Assembly (NCBI GenBank): GCA_017546705.1
Contig: JAFYSB010000046.1
Location: 1 to 35,781, forward strand
Direction: 5' to 3'
DNA: 35,781 nucleotides
Origin: Paludibacteraceae bacterium
GTDB lineage: Bacteria; Bacteroidota; Bacteroidia; Bacteroidales; Paludibacteraceae
This document shows positions 10,783 through 17,931 of the stretch, in pieces (position 1 is the stretch's first letter; every line of letters starts with the position of its first letter). The notes under the pieces were generated by a model. That model was not told the origin of the DNA. It did no database searches and saw only the letters and a program-made list of their open reading frames with translations. Both the position numbers and the translations under genes were made by a program.

Positions 10783-13700
10783 TTATAGCACAACTTTTTG
10801 AATTTCACCAGCGATTGTTACAAGATATACACCTACTGGTAATGAGATCTCAGATTGACGTCCTTGATAAATCAGTTTACCAGCTGCGTCCAATACATAA
10901 TAGTCGGTATTAGCTCCTTCTACATGCAATGTTCCACTATTTCCCCATACCCTTGCCTGAGAAATCATACTGCTTTCTATGTCGGTAGGAGTAGATGATT
11001 TCACTTGGAAATAAGCATATACTTCAATATCTTCGGTCGGATAGAATGCGCGTGGATTTTCGGTATTGCCATCACTCCACTCAAGGAATTCAAATCCTTC
11101 GATTGGCTCTGCCACTAAAATTATTTTCACACGTCCTTTTTCTGGCTCGCCAGAAGCTGCGACTACATTGAACGTTTCGATTTCGAACTCAGCAATAAAG
11201 AGACTATCTTTCTCCACAACCACTGAGCGTGGGTTATCGGTTACGCCGTCTGACCATTGTACAAAGCGATAGAACTCGTTTGCAACAGCAGTTAATGTTG
11301 CTTCCTCTGTATAAAGATATTCACCAGCACCTGTTACGTTACCCATAATCTCTTCATGTACATCGGTAGTAACAACATATGTGTTGGCAGCAAATTCTGC
11401 GGTATAGGTTACATCTTCGGTCACTACGATATTGCGAGGGTTATCGGTATTGCCATCATTCCATTGTACAAAATGATAGCCATAGTTGGCAACTGCTTCG
11501 ATGATGGCGTTGTCGTCATCACACACATTGCTTTGTACGATATGCGCTGCACCTTGCTGTTCGTTGGTGGTAGCAACGGTTAGCGTGTTTGCAGGAGCGG
11601 GTTCTTGAATGTTCATTCTATATCCATCTTCAATCATATGAGCCCATACTGAATTATCCATATATGCCTCCATCGTACCGCAAGGTATCATACAGAGTGA
11701 ATGAAACATGTCAAAAGACATTTCAGAGATAGTTGGAGGAATATTAGATAATAATACAATGGTATCCATATGGCACATCATAAATGCCATATCTTGAATC
11801 TCCGTAATTGTACTTGGAAGAGTCAGTATTGGGAAATAACAATCCGAGAATGCACGATGTTCTATTAATGTTACACCTTCAGGAATGCTAATAGATGTTA
11901 TCTCCCAACACATATCAAACGCACGCTCTCCGATTGCAACAACATTGAAAGTATATCCTTCATACTCTACGGAAGCAGGAATATTAACATCCCCATGATA
12001 AGAATGCATTGGATCTTCTTCATTGTACGTTACGGTAGCAGTTTTATTCTCTACATTGAAATTGTAATAGATGCCATCTACCAAGACATGTTGGGTTGGG
12101 ATTGGTGCAAATTCTGCCGTATAGGTTACATCAGCAGTAGCAGTTACGGTACGTGGGTTTTCGGTATTGCCATCGCTCCATTGAGTAAACTTGTAGCCCT
12201 CATTAGCAGTAGCTGTCAATGTTATATAATCACCCTCTACATACACACCTCCTCCAGTAACAACACCATTCTCAGCTACTGTTGTAATAGTATATTTCTT
12301 TTGGCTTTGCACCAAACGAACAACAAATCCAAATGCAATATTATTCTCTCCGTTAGGTACGATTCTATTACCTGTAAAGTGCAATAAAGCGGCATTCGTA
12401 TCTGATTTTTTGGTAGCAGCCCAATAATGTGTATAATCAGTAACTTGCGTTCCTGAACGCATACCTGCTTGTGGTAGGAAAACGGCTCCGTTGGCTTCCA
12501 TTATATTCCACTGGTCAAGCGTAAAGGACTGGTAATCTGCGAAATTGTCATTGTTAGTTGGATAACCACTTTTGAAGGTAATTCCACTAACACCTGTCCA
12601 ATTATCTGGTAAAAGAATCAATCCATTAACCCCTGCAACTTGCGCTACACCATACAATGCCCCTGCATTAGGACGTTGCGTAAATATATATATCCATTCA
12701 TCGCCCGTAGGTGTGCGCCATGTATTAGCAGGCGATTCACCTATTACATTGGTACCCCAATCCACGAAATCACCTTTATAATCATCCGTATTGGTAGATG
12801 TGCTAATGCCCCATTTGGTGTTAGGATTGCCATCTGTACTCCAACCAAACAAATCGACCACATCTGCCAATTCTGCGCCATTCGTATTAGCAGCCCCCAC
12901 GAAGTCGTATTGATATGTGGCAAAAGACCATGTATCGGTTGAACGAGTATAGCGTAAGTTTCCTCTTGAGAAATAAATCTGTGTATCATCTCCTACGGAG
13001 AACAGTCCATTTAATTGTTCTAATTTAGTAAATTCTGCCGTATAAGTTACATCGCTTGTGACAATTACGGTACGTGGATTGTCGGTATTGCCATCGCTCC
13101 ATTGGGTAAACTTGTAACCCTCATTAGCAGTGGCTTTGAGTGTGGTTTGTTCCCCCATTTTGAATACGCCACTACCCGCTACAGTGCCATGTGCTAGGTC
13201 TGAAGGAATCGCTAAGATTTGGAAGGTTTGCACGAATGCCTTGGCAAGACGGACAGAGAGACCGCTGTAGCGACCGCTGTAGTCCATGTACGCAGCGCCA
13301 GAGCGGAAGTTGAGGTAGTCCGCGTAGTCGCTATCGTACACGGTGGCAGACCAATAGCTGCCGTCGTCCTGCACATCGTGCACATCCGAGCCGTAGCGGT
13401 AGCCTGCGGCAGGCAGGAAGACAGCACCTGATTTCTCGAGTTTTGACCATTGGTCAGCAGTAAAAGTTTGATAAGCGGCATAATACTCGGTACCATAACT
13501 ACTATGGAAACCAGACTTGAAAGTCACACCTGCTGGGCAAGTCCAATTATCAGGCAAGAAGATTAAACCATTAACTCCGTTAACTTGAGCGACACCACAC
13601 AAATCATTGGCATTGGTACGACTATTTCGAAGATAATTCCACTCATCGTAGGTCAAAGTACGCCAAGTATTAGGAGCATCATTACCAATCGTATTTGTAC

Positions 13701-15774
13701 CCCAATCTACAAACGAACCACTATAATCATTATAATCAGTAGAAGTACTTACACCAAAATTATTGGCACTCGTACTCCATCCAAGCAAATCTACCCAACT
13801 ATCGTAATCGGCAGCGATATTGCTATTTGCTGCACCAATATAATCGGTTTGATTTTCTGCAAAACGCCATTCATCATTCTTTGGATGATACTGCAAGTTA
13901 CCCTTTGAGAAAGTCACTTGCTTGTCAGCGGACACAGAGAAAGAAGAAATGGATTGATTAGCTTCTTGATCTTCATCCAAAGATAATGTTAGTTGGAGTG
14001 TGAGGGTCACATTTTGCGAAGGCATTACAAAAGTGCTGTTATCAATCATAGGGACTGGCACTTTCAACGCACTTTTCAAAGATGCTGACGTAACCGTGTA
14101 ACCTCTTTTCACAACCAACTGCACCGTATCTGATACTGCATAAGAAGGGTTGGATGTAGTGACTAAATTTGGTTCATTGGATTGAATAGTCACCGTATAT
14201 TGTGTTTCATCCTTTTCTTGGTTTAAACTGAGCCACAAATCATCAAACTTAGGTCCGAAATTTCCGCCCCAAAATAAACAATCCTTCCCCTCAAAATAAA
14301 ACTTTGCAGAACGTGTACCTACAGGCAGCGGACATTGAGCAGCATAGGTATCCCATTCATAGTGGTATTCTTGAGTACCATCAGTAGTATAAGATACATT
14401 GTGCATTTCCAATTTTGCCAATTCAGTTCCATCTTCAGCGTAACAGTATGTCCATAAGCGGGTATAGCCTGTCTCATACCTATTTTGACCCACTCCAAGA
14501 TCGCTGTAAGCACGTCCAGAAACGTAAATATAAGGTTGATTATCAAGTTCCTCTACCGTAAATCCTTTTTCTACAAAATTCACTGTTTGTTCAGCACTAC
14601 AGTTCATATACGATGCATGCCAGTAATTCTCAGCAGTACTCCAATTACCAGAAACATTCCAACCATCGGAAGAATTATTGTTGCATGATGGGTTGGTGAG
14701 TAAGTTTTCGCCGTAGGTTGCTTTTGGAGTTTCAGGTTCTTCTGGAGTGGAAGGAGTGTCAACTTCGGGTTCCTTGGCAAGGCGCACAGAAAAACCGCAG
14801 TCACGAACGAGGTTGGTCTGCGGATTGAGGCAGTTGGATTGGAAGTCCACGCCGTACGCGTAGAACTCTTCGCGCCCTGTACTCGACCAATAGCGGGCGA
14901 TGTTGCCAAAATCGCCCACATCCGTACCCCAGCGGCCGCCGCTCGCTGGGAGGAACACTGCACCCGCCTGCTCCATCTTGGACCATTGCTCTGAAGTGTA
15001 AGTGTTATCACCATAGTTTGTGCCATTGCTATTATAGTAACATCTATCGTCCCATAATAAGCCATTCGTAGTACTTGCTACGAAACTTACACCAGCTGGA
15101 GTAGTCCAATTATCAGGTAAAATAATCGTACCATTTACACCATTAACGCTACCCAAAGCAAATAACGACTGTGCATTTGGACGATTATAGAAGATATACA
15201 TCCACTCATCCTTAGACAATGTACGCCATGTATCAGGAGCATCAGTACCGATTGTATTAGTGCCCCAATCGACAAATGTTTGATAAGCACTATAAAATGG
15301 ACTTGATTTAGTAGGCGCATCACCTGTTCCCCAGCCAAACAAATCTATCCAACCATCATAATCGGCTGCAATATTACTGTTTGCATCACCAATATAGTCG
15401 GTTTGATTCTCTGCAAAACGCCATTCATTATTTGCAGGGTGATATTGCAAATTGCCAGAAGAGAAGATAATCTGCTTATCCACACTTACAGAGAAAAGTC
15501 CAATGTTATAGAGATATAATGTGGCATCCTTTTGGACTGAATAATCCTGCAAAGTATTGCCATCTTCCAAACATTTACCTGCATAAATGAGTTGATAATA
15601 CACAGGCAAGGTTCCCTCTTTATCAAGAATCTTAGCCTTTACGTCTTCAATTCGATCAGTAGGTTCTACCTCTAAGGTAACGTGCCTACCATCAGGCATC
15701 TTAACGAAGATTTGCATCGCCGACAAGGAGAGCGTGATCATGACTGCCGACATAAGGAGTAATAGTTTTTTCAT
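10783..15774 (-). CDS. Ubiquitin-fold / FISUMP / FBA-like / BspA-LRR secreted surface protein with T9SS tail
   Basis: The product is 1663 residues from ATG 15774. An in-frame TTG two codons upstream is less likely because the ATG begins a clean signal peptide (1-19, [19 protein letters not shown]). Modules in order: ubiquitin fold 20-91; FISUMP 1 about 94-334; FBA-like domain about 354-517; a linker domain about 522-600; FISUMP 2 about 607-846; InlB-like B-repeat about 850-917; FISUMP 3 about 922-1157; B-repeat about 1160-1223; BspA-type leucine-rich repeat segment about 1229-1389; three more B-repeats to about 1593; T9SS sorting domain 1597-1663. All parts point to the cell surface. The ubiquitin part cannot be conjugated by the usual route because Gly75-Gly76 are absent, so binding or mimicry is more likely than modification. 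FISUMP and BspA modules are commonly adhesive. It has its own promoter (16055-16086) and a structured leader. The function as a whole is unknown. Confidence 0.85.
13240..13410 (-). other. Candidate DGR-type variable region in FISUMP domain 2
   Basis: This is the C-terminal part of FISUMP 2, residues about 789-846. Most codons end in C, and the variable positions are mainly TAC, GAC, AGC and CAC, the one-step products of AAC in a mutagenic template. Fixed positions are YWSAT, an Ala, a Phe, an Arg and [10 protein letters not shown] content jumps: 36 of 60 bases at 13261-13320 against 19 of 60 at 13681-13740 in the same domain. Confidence 0.5.
14226..14715 (-). other. F-box-associated (FBA)-like glycan-binding domain
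   Basis: Residues about 354-517 match the layout of eukaryotic FBA domains (PF04300, as in FBXO2/FBXO6) by recall. The N-terminal [16 protein letters not shown] parallels NLLRNPxGEExLxGW. ASYMNC with [10 protein letters not shown] parallels SSFEWC with [27 protein letters not shown] parallels FEHGGQDSxYWKGWFGA. FBA folds are galactose-binding-like beta sandwiches. A generic carbohydrate-binding module of the same fold is the main alternative. Confidence 0.55.
14773..14946 (-). other. Candidate DGR-type variable region in FISUMP domain 1
   Basis: This is the C-terminal part of FISUMP 1, residues about 277-334. It shares the fixed frame YWSST, Ala, Phe-x-Ser, Arg and GFSVRLAK with FISUMP 2 but is different at nearly every position between. 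It is GC-rich (38 of 60 bases at 14881-14940). The NNC codon bias is weaker than in FISUMP 2. Confidence 0.42.
15502..15717 (-). other. Ubiquitin-fold domain at the mature N-terminus
   Basis: Residues 20-91 align without gaps to ubiquitin 1-72, with 44 identities by hand. It begins MQIFVK and keeps TLEVEP, VKAKI, DKEG, the Leu43-Ile44 pair, AGK(48), LEDG, TL, DY and QK(63). Lys6, 27, 29, 33, 48 and 63 are kept and Lys11 is Arg. Leu8 is Pro, His68 and Val70 are Tyr, and the LRLRGG tail is replaced by NIGLFS. Confidence 0.93.
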
Positions 15775-15846
15775 ACTCAAAGATTTTTATGATTAATTAT
15801 ATTTCGTTTCTAAAAATAAAAAGCGTGTGCCTTCGTTCGCTTCAAT

Positions 15847-15982
15847 TTGATTTTCTGAGGTTCTCGACTACCTTAATCATTCAAATCTACGCACTGAAAA
15901 CTCACGCTGGAAACGCGAGCGTGCATAAACCGTACTTGAATGATTAATGATTTCTAAAAGTGTCGAGGTTTCAGAAAATCAA
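15847..15982 (-). ncRNA. Large self-complementary element in the 5' leader of the ubiquitin-fusion mRNA
   Basis: Three nested arms pair in register: TTGATTTTCTGA (15847-15858) with TCAGAAAATCAA (15971-15982), CTCGAC (15863-15868) with GTCGAG (15962-15967), and TTAATCATTCAA (15873-15884) with TTGAATGATTAA (15936-15947). An apical CACGCT/AGCGTG stem lies inside (15903-15923). It falls between the promoter at 16055-16086 and the start codon, so it should be transcribed as leader RNA. It could equally be a small inverted-repeat element (MITE-like). I do not recognise it as a known riboswitch. Confidence 0.6.
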
Positions 15983-16054
15983 GTTTGGGCTTATAACGCT
16001 ATATTAAATATGTCGGGCAACGCGGTGCGTTGCGAATTTTTCTATTTTCAACTG

Positions 16055-16086
16055 CAAAGGTACGATAAAATTTGCGGATATGCAAA
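16055..16086 (-). promoter_or_regulatory. Bacteroidota-type promoter for the ubiquitin-fusion gene
   Basis: On the minus strand TTTG (16086-16083), 20 nt, TACCTTTG (16062-16055): a consensus match. It lies about 280 nt before the ATG at 15774, implying a long leader that contains the structured element. Confidence 0.78.
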
Positions 16087-16161
16087 TTTTTGGTAAAATT
16101 CGTAAGCATTTTTCTAAAGGTTGAGGTCAGTACAAGTTTTGAAACATTAGTGAGAGTCGCT

Positions 16162-16205
16162 GAATAACCTAAGAATCACCTAAGAATCACCTATGAATAA
16201 CCTAA
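16162..16205. repeat. 11-nt tandem array (4 units) between the ubiquitin-fusion promoter and groEL
   Basis: The units are GAATAACCTAA, GAATCACCTAA, GAATCACCTAT, GAATAACCTAA. It sits between the promoter at 16055-16086 and the terminator of the groESL transcript. The rest of the 15775-16302 spacer is covered by the structured leader, promoter and terminator entries. Confidence 0.88.
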
Positions 16206-16222
16206 GATTTATAAAAGGAGAT

Positions 16223-16250
16223 AAAAAATCGCCCTAAAAGGCGATTTTTT
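16223..16250. terminator. Terminator after groEL
   Basis: AAAAAATCGCC (16223-16233) pairs with GGCGATTTTTT (16240-16250) around a 6-nt loop. The outer A/T tracts give a U run in either direction. It lies about 50 nt after the groEL stop. Confidence 0.85.
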
Positions 16251-16302
16251 GGTTGTTCTATATAATATAGATACTATAGATGTTTAGACCTTCTATATAA
16301 AA

Positions 16303-17931
16303 TTACATCATGCCGCCCATGCCACCTGCAGGCATAGCAGGCATAGGGTTTTCCTCTTTGATGTCGGTGATTACGCACTCGGTGGTGAGGAACATACCGG
16401 CGATGCTAGCAGCATTCTCAAGCGCTACGCGAGTTACCTTCGCTGGATCTACCACGCCTGCCTCCTTGAGGTTCTCATATACGTCCTTGCGGGCATTGTA
16501 ACCGAAGTCTGCTTTGCCTTGGCGCACTTTATCCACTACCACAGCACCCTCTTTGCCTGCGTTAGCTACGATTTGGCGAAGTGGCTCCTCTATAGCGCGA
16601 CGGATGATCTCGATACCAGTTTGCTCGTCCTCGTTCTCGCCTTTGAGGCCTTCGAGAGCTTCTTGTGCGCGGATATATGCTACGCCACCACCTGCTACGA
16701 TACCTTCTTCGATCGCTGCGCGAGTTGCGCTGAGGGCATCATCCACGCGGTCTTTCTTCTCCTTCATCTCCACCTCAGAGGCAGCACCCACATTGAGTTG
16801 GGCTACGCCGCCTGCGAGTTTAGCGAGACGTTCTTGGAGTTTTTCTTTGTCGTAGGTAGATTTAGTGGCAACGATTTGTGCTTTGATTTGTCCCACGCGA
16901 GCAGCGATAGCCTCTTTGTCGCCTGCGCCGTTCACGATGGTAGTGTTATCCTTGTTGACAGTGATGCTCTCTGCTGTACCGAGCATGTCGATGGTAGCGG
17001 TCTCAAGTTTGATACCCTTCTCTTCGCTGATAACGGTACCTCCTGTGAGGATAGCGATATCCTCGAGCATCTCTTTGCGGCGATCACCAAAGCCTGGAGC
17101 TTTCACTGCGCAGATCTTGAGTTGTGCACGAAGGCGGTTGACAACCAATGTGGTAAGTGCTTCGCTATCTACATCTTCTGCGATTACGAGCAATGGACGA
17201 CCACTTTGTACCGCTGGCTCGAGCACAGGAAGTAGCTCTTTGAGGTTGCTGATCTTCTTATCATAGAGGAGGATATATGGACGATCCATCTCTACCTCCA
17301 TGGTCTCGGTATTGGTTACGAAGTATGGGCTGATATAGCCGCGGTCGAACTGCATACCTTGTACTACGTCGATGGTCGTATCCATACCTTTGGCTTCGCC
17401 GATGGTGATGACGCCATCTTTGCTTACCATACGCATCGCGTCCGCAATGAGTTTGCCGATAGTAGCGTCGTTGTTCGCAGAGATGGTAGCTACTTGCTCG
17501 ATCTTGTCGAAGTCGTTGCCTACCTCTTCGCTTTGCGCTTTGATATTGGCTACGATAGCGCTCACAGCCTTATCCATACCGCGCTTGAGGTCCATAGGGT
17601 TGGCACCTGCTGTGACGTTCTTCAGTCCCACACCTACAATAGCTTGTGTGAGCACGGTAGCGGTGGTGGTACCGTCGCCTGCTTGGTCACCAGTTTTACT
17701 AGCCACTTCTTTTACGAGTTGTGTACCGAGGTTCTCTGCTGCGTCAGCAAGCTCAATCTCTTTCGCTACAGATACACCATCTTTGGTGATATGTGGTGCA
17801 CCGAACTTCTTATCGATGATTACGTTGCGACCTTTAGGGCCGAGGGTTACTTTGACTGCGTTAGCCAATTGGTCAACGCCACGTTTGAGGGCATCACGCG
17901 CCTCAATATTGTATGAAATATTCTTTGCCAT
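16303..17931 (-). CDS. groEL: Chaperonin GroEL (Hsp60)
   Basis: This 542-residue protein is full length for the family. It begins [28 protein letters not shown], contains the ATP-binding [12 protein letters not shown] and [10 protein letters not shown] motifs near residues 30 and 87, and ends in the flexible Gly-Met tail (PAGGMGGMM). It forms the tetradecameric folding cage with GroES in the cytoplasm. It lies 65 nt downstream of groES in the same direction, separated by a 9-nt repeat array. No CIRCE element (TTAGCACTC inverted repeat) was seen, so HrcA control is not evident here. Several long open frames antisense to it are by-products of its codon usage. Confidence 0.98.

Follow-up and report, generated by a model that had tools for sequence, protein, structure and literature searches.

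Here we describe a gene on the reverse strand of contig JAFYSB010000046.1 from a Paludibacteraceae bacterium (assembly GCA_017546705.1; positions 1 to 35,781, the whole stretch analysed, hereafter the window), whose product is predicted to be exported with a ubiquitin domain at its mature N-terminus. Open reading frame (ORF) 10783-15780 is open throughout, its mechanical start being a TTG two codons upstream of the likely ATG at 15774. The 1,663-residue protein runs from a signal-like peptide through ubiquitin, three FISUMP-like modules, InlB-type B repeats and a BspA-type leucine-rich repeat (LRR) to an end that weakly resembles the sorting domain of the type IX secretion system (T9SS), and a structured leader RNA precedes the gene:

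10783..15774, reverse strand: whole gene, 1,663 codons and a stop
15718..15774, reverse strand: predicted signal peptide of 19 residues abutting ubiquitin Met1 (from the translation, by pattern only)
15502..15717, reverse strand: ubiquitin domain, residues 20-91, with trichomonad-type residues and without the Gly-Gly tail (Pfam PF00240, E=6.1e-17)
14770..15501, reverse strand: FISUMP-like module 1, residues 92-335 (TIGR02145, 15.7 bits, below the cut-off of 41.65)
13239..13947, reverse strand: FISUMP-like module 2 (TIGR02145, 17.1 bits, below the same cut-off)
12306..13008, reverse strand: FISUMP-like module 3, without a library match but alignable to modules 1 and 2
12100..12294, reverse strand: InlB-type B repeat (Flg_new_2), the best of four stretches (Pfam PF18998, E=4.4e-48 for the whole protein)
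11680..11937, reverse strand: BspA-type LRR (Pfam PF13306, E=3.1e-14)
10792..10923, reverse strand: C-terminal end with weak likeness to a T9SS type A sorting domain (TIGR04183, below cut-off)
15812..16013, reverse strand: structured leader RNA element, 38 nucleotides before the ATG, common to two further assemblies (L026 and L027) along with the gene

A preliminary description of this DNA had proposed, from the letters alone, that 15502-15717 encodes a ubiquitin fold, and the sequence searches confirm a true ubiquitin domain, with which the exported protein is predicted to begin once mature. Residues 20-91 are placed in the ubiquitin family by PF00240 at 61.6 bits, against a cut-off of 25.4, and the 44 identities to human ubiquitin counted by hand over positions 1-72 proved exact (gap-free 44/72, and also 44/69 over positions 1-69); human ubiquitin chains in the PDB score about 84 bits with the window domain in phmmer. 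The genome, in an assembly about 90% complete, has no PF00240 match besides this one (E=1.8e-18), and none of 14 control genomes has a match. The residue list given earlier is likewise correct: K6, K27, K29, K33, K48, K63 and I44 are kept relative to human ubiquitin, and L8, H68, V70 and the Gly-Gly are lost, with K11R, R42Q, Q49C and R72I as further substitutions. In place of the C-terminal Leu-Arg-Gly-Gly of conjugating ubiquitins, positions 70-76 read YNIGLFS and continue into module 1; the absence of an RLRGG-type tail supports the claim that the domain could not itself be conjugated. An AlphaFold model from a 27-row alignment places strands and helix in ubiquitin order with block-mean predicted local distance difference test scores (pLDDT) of 68-94 over residues 1-70; the module behind is poorly modelled (whole-model mean pLDDT 58), and how ubiquitin packs against module 1 cannot usefully be read from the model.

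Directly after the 19-residue signal-like peptide, MQIFVK... begins at residue 20 (nucleotide 15717), which supports the predicted Met1 as mature N-terminus; the signal peptide was called by eye and with a hydrophobicity rule, and its -3 residue is Leu rather than a classic small residue. The FISUMP label used in the preliminary description amounts to no more than a resemblance, both scoring modules falling below the family cut-off. At the C-terminus, the T9SS sorting-domain model scores 15.4 bits (E=0.036, cut-off 23), a lax threshold at which TIGR04183 also matches 13 of the 14 control genomes, one of them over cut-off. A T9SS is present in the genome itself, as judged from SprA_N, the one part searched (E=2.1e-175; 0/14 controls).

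The join between these parts is genuine. The same signal peptide-ubiquitin-module 1 order is found in two other assemblies titled Paludibacteraceae and belonging to the window's genus, namely L026 (RGIG3996, a metagenome-assembled genome (MAG) from roe deer caecum) and L027 (RGIG8554, a MAG from water deer caecum), each differing from the window over residues 1-69 by 8 synonymous changes and 1 non-synonymous change. Because two other assemblies carry the join, and because a comparable fusion lies on plasmid pRUMAL01 of Ruminococcus albus 7, we reject the chimera near 15.5 kb that the preliminary description had named as a possible refutation. That the window and many of its relatives are metagenome assemblies would leave room for chimerism or eukaryotic contamination, yet the synonymous differences at an identical join, the bacterial signal peptide and modules flanking the domain, and the occurrence of the layout in a named strain deposited as complete make this explanation vanishingly improbable. 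Around the gene, L026 and L027 are collinear with each other in seven blocks of 89.5-98% identity, and a comparison of 12-17 kb with the window yields matches only to portions of the gene and to some 230 nucleotides upstream. The window gene has a groEL-like neighbour, and a priA-like gene lies upstream in L027 (gene likenesses as read by us), so the gene unit sits at different places. Between L026 and L027, the flanks and both gene ends align and the middle of the gene, where the modules differ, has no blastn alignment, which indicates module shuffling within the gene.

The domain is a member of a widespread family. A scan of 84,980 species genomes with two short patterns returned 530 stretches, 478 of which were confirmed as relatives; those analysed below (identified by L numbers) are the best 80 of the 478, ranked by likeness to the window domain and hence leaning towards its own clade, and 6 of the 80 ORFs run off a contig end. 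By our own rule for hydrophobicity, a signal-like run lies directly before the domain in 75/80; the exceptions are L037, L056, L066, L078 and L100, of which L066, L078 and L100 have at most 12 residues upstream. Residues at -1/-3 are small or aliphatic in 77 relatives, and the domain begins with Met in 78. The motif L[RK]GG is retained in only five (L056, L080, L089, L097 and L098). Extension past position 76 amounts to at most 20 residues in 2/80, more than 20 in 78/80 and more than 600 in 11/80. The preliminary description held the fusion to surface modules to be an architecture it did not know of: surface-type modules are indeed present, but with 478 related stretches confirmed and 78 of the best 80 extended, we reject a one-off architecture. 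Closer to home, PF00240 matches occur in 5/101 genomes of the genus, 3/200 of the family, 5/393 of the order (3 over cut-off) and 6/395 of the phylum, the window's own genome being included each time. Carriage by phages or viruses was not found when the window domain was compared with phages and with viral contigs (a search sensitive to close relatives only) and the L034 domain with phages; plasmid searches returned R. albus 7 and one weaker Pseudoalteromonas match. We thus place the segment within a widespread bacterial family of exported ubiquitins built from a signal peptide, a Met1-first ubiquitin, a variable stalk and often a lineage-specific anchor. A second, more divergent exported ubiquitin-like subfamily occurs in the window's genus and order (L004 in genome G021 and L016 in G591), starting MQIYIDVPEQD directly behind a signal-like peptide. 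One single-contig genome (G980) carries two short exported ubiquitins, L023 and L025, about 0.4 kb apart, one of which has a one-residue insertion near position 8.

Within this family, the window domain belongs to a clade with residues typical of trichomonads. Its best single-domain PDB score, among the 60 chains listed, is to chain m of 5xy3 at 100.7 bits, multi-copy ubiquitin chains scoring higher by summing their copies; 5XY3 is the Trichomonas vaginalis ribosome, according to the available text of PMC8860606. Against the same chain, the domain of L034 (an alphaproteobacterial MAG whose title gives no habitat) scores 146.0 bits, where a sequence identical over positions 1-71 scores 145.9 and human ubiquitin 128.5. 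The equal bit scores suggest that L034 is identical to T. vaginalis ubiquitin over 1-71, although a conservative change remains possible in view of single-change trial copies scoring 142.2-145.4. L034 departs from human ubiquitin at eight of 69 positions (H12, T20, R22, D25, N54, Q57, S60 and D64); the window carries all eight of these residues common with T. vaginalis ubiquitin, and among the 80 relatives at least five are present in 30, at most two in 50, and no relative falls between. A phylogeny of 89 ubiquitin rows agrees: the window together with those 30 relatives makes up 31 tips on one side of a branch (support 99/97) that is present in 100% of 200 bootstrap trees, in a tree of only 74 columns in which 50 of 85 inner branches are drawn open and the bootstrap is not fully settled. 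After L026 and L027, the nearest kin of the window is L028, a Clostridia MAG from water deer rectum (96/93). The clade spans Pseudomonadota, Bacillota and Bacteroidota, and a gut site is named in the titles of six of the 30 relatives (L026, L027, L028, L040, L053 and L054), the other titles naming none.

It is therefore shown at the level of sequence that the window domain belongs to a cross-phylum, trichomonad-type clade. Some bacterium probably took the domain from a parabasalid protist, after which it would have passed between phyla; both donor and direction are read from the residues and the tree. The window domain departs at 19/71 positions from the trichomonad-type sequence as carried by L034, and the T. 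vaginalis protein is part of that eukaryote's own ubiquitin system. The protist-type residues, like the leader RNA described below, go beyond what the preliminary description saw.

The sequence comparisons further indicate strong selection on the ubiquitin domain. The ratio of non-synonymous to synonymous substitution rates (dN/dS) in the domain is 0.029 between the window and L026 and 0.028 between the window and L027, against 0.321 and 0.223 for the rest of the protein, and the domain has the lower value in all 10 pairs for which we could count the two parts. Conservation is also unevenly spread over the surface. Measured as majority-residue conservation within the clade, the Phe4/TEK/D58 face (as scored also including Q62, S65 and T66, and leaving out the diagnostic positions) reaches 0.954, close to the core at 0.948, in comparison with 0.829 for other exposed positions and 0.627 for the Ile44/Ile36 face; R42, Q49, P37 and V70 are the least conserved residues of the clade. 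In the other 50 relatives the corresponding values are 0.965 for Phe4/TEK/D58, 0.953 for the core, 0.890 for other exposed positions and 0.816 for Ile44/Ile36. Some relatives stay almost identical to the human protein over 69 positions, L059 at 68/69 and L074 and L075 at 67/69 each, even as the L059-L074 pair shows a dS of 1.59.

What follows the ubiquitin differs by lineage. Pfam and NCBIfam were run on ORFs read from Met1 and limited to 900 residues, which shortened nine of the 80 (L026, L027, L032, L053, L067, L080, L083, L094 and L096). Pfam finds Autotransporter in 18, Flg_new_2 in 7, SLH in 6, IPTL-CTERM in 5, an outer-membrane protein barrel in 3, LRR_5 in 2 and a T9SS tail in 2; NCBIfam finds an autotransporter barrel in 11, midcut-by-XrtH in 7, IPTL-CTERM in 6, choice-of-anchor U in 4 and T9SS in 2; and our own C-terminal patterns add 10 sortase-like ends, 7 of IPTL/PEP type and 3 other C-terminal membrane stretches. 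Assuming no overlap, 43/80 relatives carry an anchor (Autotransporter 18, SLH 6, T9SS 2, IPTL/PEP-type 7, sortase-like 10). One N-terminal domain set upon the anchors of different lineages points to selection for surface display. The midcut-by-XrtH matches (NF033207) may link exported ubiquitins to exosortase-type processing.

An instructive relative outside the MAGs is WP_013483628.1 on plasmid pRUMAL01 of R. albus 7, which like the window protein joins a signal-like peptide, a ubiquitin and an exported module; it differs in having standard-type residues at all eight diagnostic positions, a short and different module, and homologous neighbours without ubiquitin. The gene preceding it is a module relative without ubiquitin (38% identity, E=2e-21), and the next gene is a weaker module relative (E=4e-4). 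This exported-looking run (L184, 2372-4182), one member of which has an N-terminal ubiquitin, offers a natural with/without-ubiquitin comparison in a named strain.

Upstream of the window gene, the ~200-nucleotide leader is a covarying RNA without an Rfam match that precedes mostly exported-looking genes. The region 15775-16050 folds with z=-5.8, and Rfam has nothing over its gathering score in 15400-16310. The leader has six DNA matches in its own genome, one a 35-nucleotide fragment, and is found by DNA in 47/61 genomes of the genus. We aligned 39 copies (L112-L115, L126-L159 and the window; 34 picked by us from genus matches, four from the window's own genome, and the window). With the structure derived from this same alignment, 98.6% of cells pair, against 30-43% in slid controls; 20 of 51 pairs show a compensatory change, against a shuffled mean of 10.5, and none of 500 shuffles was as high on any of five measures. 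Besides the window's, a same-strand ORF follows 37 of 38 copies, within 110 nucleotides in 32, and the opposite side has an ORF within that distance in 7; by eye, 31 of the 38 downstream ORFs start with a secretory or lipoprotein signal. Since the arms covary in 39 copies and a same-strand ORF follows nearly all of them, we rejected an invertible promoter formed by the upstream inverted repeats in favour of a leader RNA. A model of the leader (R1, rough E-values) matches 58 of 101 genomes of the family (26 of 33 genera) with 15 matches in the window's own genome, and at E<=1e-4 20 of 119 genomes of the order, the own genome and one family member included. In five further leader loci Rfam returned only DUF805b, a cis-regulatory RNA, lying just downstream of the leader in two (L126:1460-1494 and L115:945-979). 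A T9SS sorting-domain match follows five of the 15 own-genome copies on the same strand within 5.5 kb, three over the family cut-off and two below it, the window gene among the latter. At its 3' end the leader has what looks like an intrinsic terminator, possibly in competition with the outer helix. In the manner of a terminator switch, the AAGCG that precedes CACGCTTTTT and the conserved AGCG at the 5' end may both compete for one CGCT.

The nearest described system is BfUbb of Bacteroides fragilis, which, as far as the accessible text of the source goes, has a signal sequence, lacks the terminal glycines and is present in supernatants (PMC3352274). The likeness seen in the preliminary description is borne out, for both proteins are eukaryotic-like ubiquitins with a signal sequence (here a sequence pattern) directly before Met1 and with the terminal glycines lost. 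They differ in that BfUbb, in the portions of the literature available, is a secreted, stand-alone mature protein of 76 residues with 63% identity to human ubiquitin, whereas the window protein of 1,663 residues has 44/72 identity, trichomonad-type residues and about 1,570 further residues, the comparison being with BfUbb as described. BfUbb, described from one species, is the only exported bacterial ubiquitin that we found in the open-licence literature, where our searches turned up no work that treats surface-anchored ubiquitins of bacteria as a family; the accessible passages of PMC10892293, PMC8003559 and PMC12853789 mention just BfUbb or its toxin role. In databases, individual members go by the name "ubiquitin family protein". 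Bacterial intracellular ubiquitin-like conjugation systems also use ubiquitin-like domains, which are cytoplasmic and accompanied by conjugation genes. The window domain differs in being predicted to be exported and in lacking a conjugation tail.

We favour the reading, with a probability of roughly 0.6, that the window protein presents an exported, surface-shown, non-conjugatable ubiquitin of trichomonad type as a recognition head that binds a partner through its Phe4/TEK/D58 face. After export, a free N-terminal ubiquitin would be shown outside the cell; conjugation would be impossible, the RLRGG tail having turned into a linker in the sequence; the conserved Phe4/TEK-box/D58 face would bind the partner, probably one made by a different microbe or by a eukaryote sharing the habitat; and the modules behind would keep the domain at the cell surface or bind further ligands. 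Across the entire family we lean slightly towards eukaryotic partners, because L059, L074 and L075 stay almost human-identical. More tentatively, and at less than even odds, bacteria of many phyla may display a eukaryote-derived ubiquitin on anchors of their own lineages as a selected mimic that engages protist or host molecules through the same face, with one sub-clade, some of whose members live in animal guts, acquired from trichomonads and spread across phyla.

Several points weigh against this reading. The T9SS-like tail is below cut-off, so the window protein's own anchoring is less certain than that of its relatives, 37/80 of which show no anchor by our counts, and Gly-Gly is retained in 5/80. 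The low dN/dS of the domain derives from a small number of differences (8 synonymous, 1 non-synonymous) in pairs that we chose. The patch lists came from textbook memory and were fixed after per-position counts had been seen; with patches chosen late and rows related to one another, no clean probability can be taken from permuting the labels (0 of about 20,000 permutations for the clade; 4.5e-4 for the other 50 relatives). As for origin, the eukaryotes compared are those with a solved ubiquitin, so the donor may have been a different one that shares these eight residues; the near-human exported ubiquitins may in part be repeated recent acquisitions.

Among other explanations, a contact-dependent antibacterial weapon, in which a BfUbb-like head, held on the producer's surface by the fusion rather than released, inhibits related bacteria, seems to us rather unlikely. 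The layout is that of BfUbb, whose similarity to ubiquitin, per the accessible text, starts right after the signal sequence and whose terminal glycines are absent (PMC3352274, PMC5705921); BfUbb kills some B. fragilis strains, its producers being said to need no immunity protein (PMC5705921, in part), and Tyr119 of a peptidyl-prolyl isomerase is reported to decide sensitivity (Jiang et al. 2024, as cited in PMC12396204). The window domain, moreover, is diverged (44/69) yet strongly selected. Against this, a 1,663-residue protein would make a poor diffusible toxin and the family is found across many phyla. Bovine ubiquitin, which has the human sequence, does not inhibit B. fragilis strains in the BfUbb assay, as far as that source's accessible text goes (PMC5705921), which makes weapons of this kind unlikely among the near-human exported ubiquitins, an argument that leaves the diverged window domain untouched.

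A very stable N-terminal domain might instead merely cap the exported protein, protecting or solubilising it without a specific partner. The domain is evidently optional, as the FISUMP-like modules have many relatives in the genome and ubiquitin occurs there once, and the R. albus 7 protein stands next to homologues without one; fold stability alone, however, would not call for one exposed face being as strict as the core while another drifts, nor for a domain that changes at a far slower pace than the remaining protein, and we consider an inert cap improbable. Still less probable is a decoy that uses its Ile44/R42/R72 side to compete for the ubiquitin-binding or E1/E2 surfaces of eukaryotes. 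Recombinant BfUbb did inhibit ubiquitination in vitro (PMC3352274, in its accessible part), and the seven lysines are retained at 93-95%, but L8, R42, Q49, H68, V70 and R72 are all changed in the window. That the Ile44 face is the least conserved of the clade and the Phe4/TEK/D58 face is core-like argues against such a decoy and in favour of a partner bound on the other side of the domain, and it weakens the earlier suggestion that the domain could occupy some ubiquitin-binding surfaces. The companion suggestion that it accepts ubiquitin chains finds no support here, conjugation genes not having been searched for.

Exported ubiquitin, then, is now seen hundreds of times across bacteria, often surface-anchored and with a protist-type branch that crosses phyla. 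It clearly exemplifies how a core protein of eukaryotes can move into bacteria and stay strongly selected there without its conjugation tail, and it raises a testable question, namely what a ubiquitin binds outside the cell. A conserved face is defined for probing, and a named strain, R. albus 7, carries a related protein.

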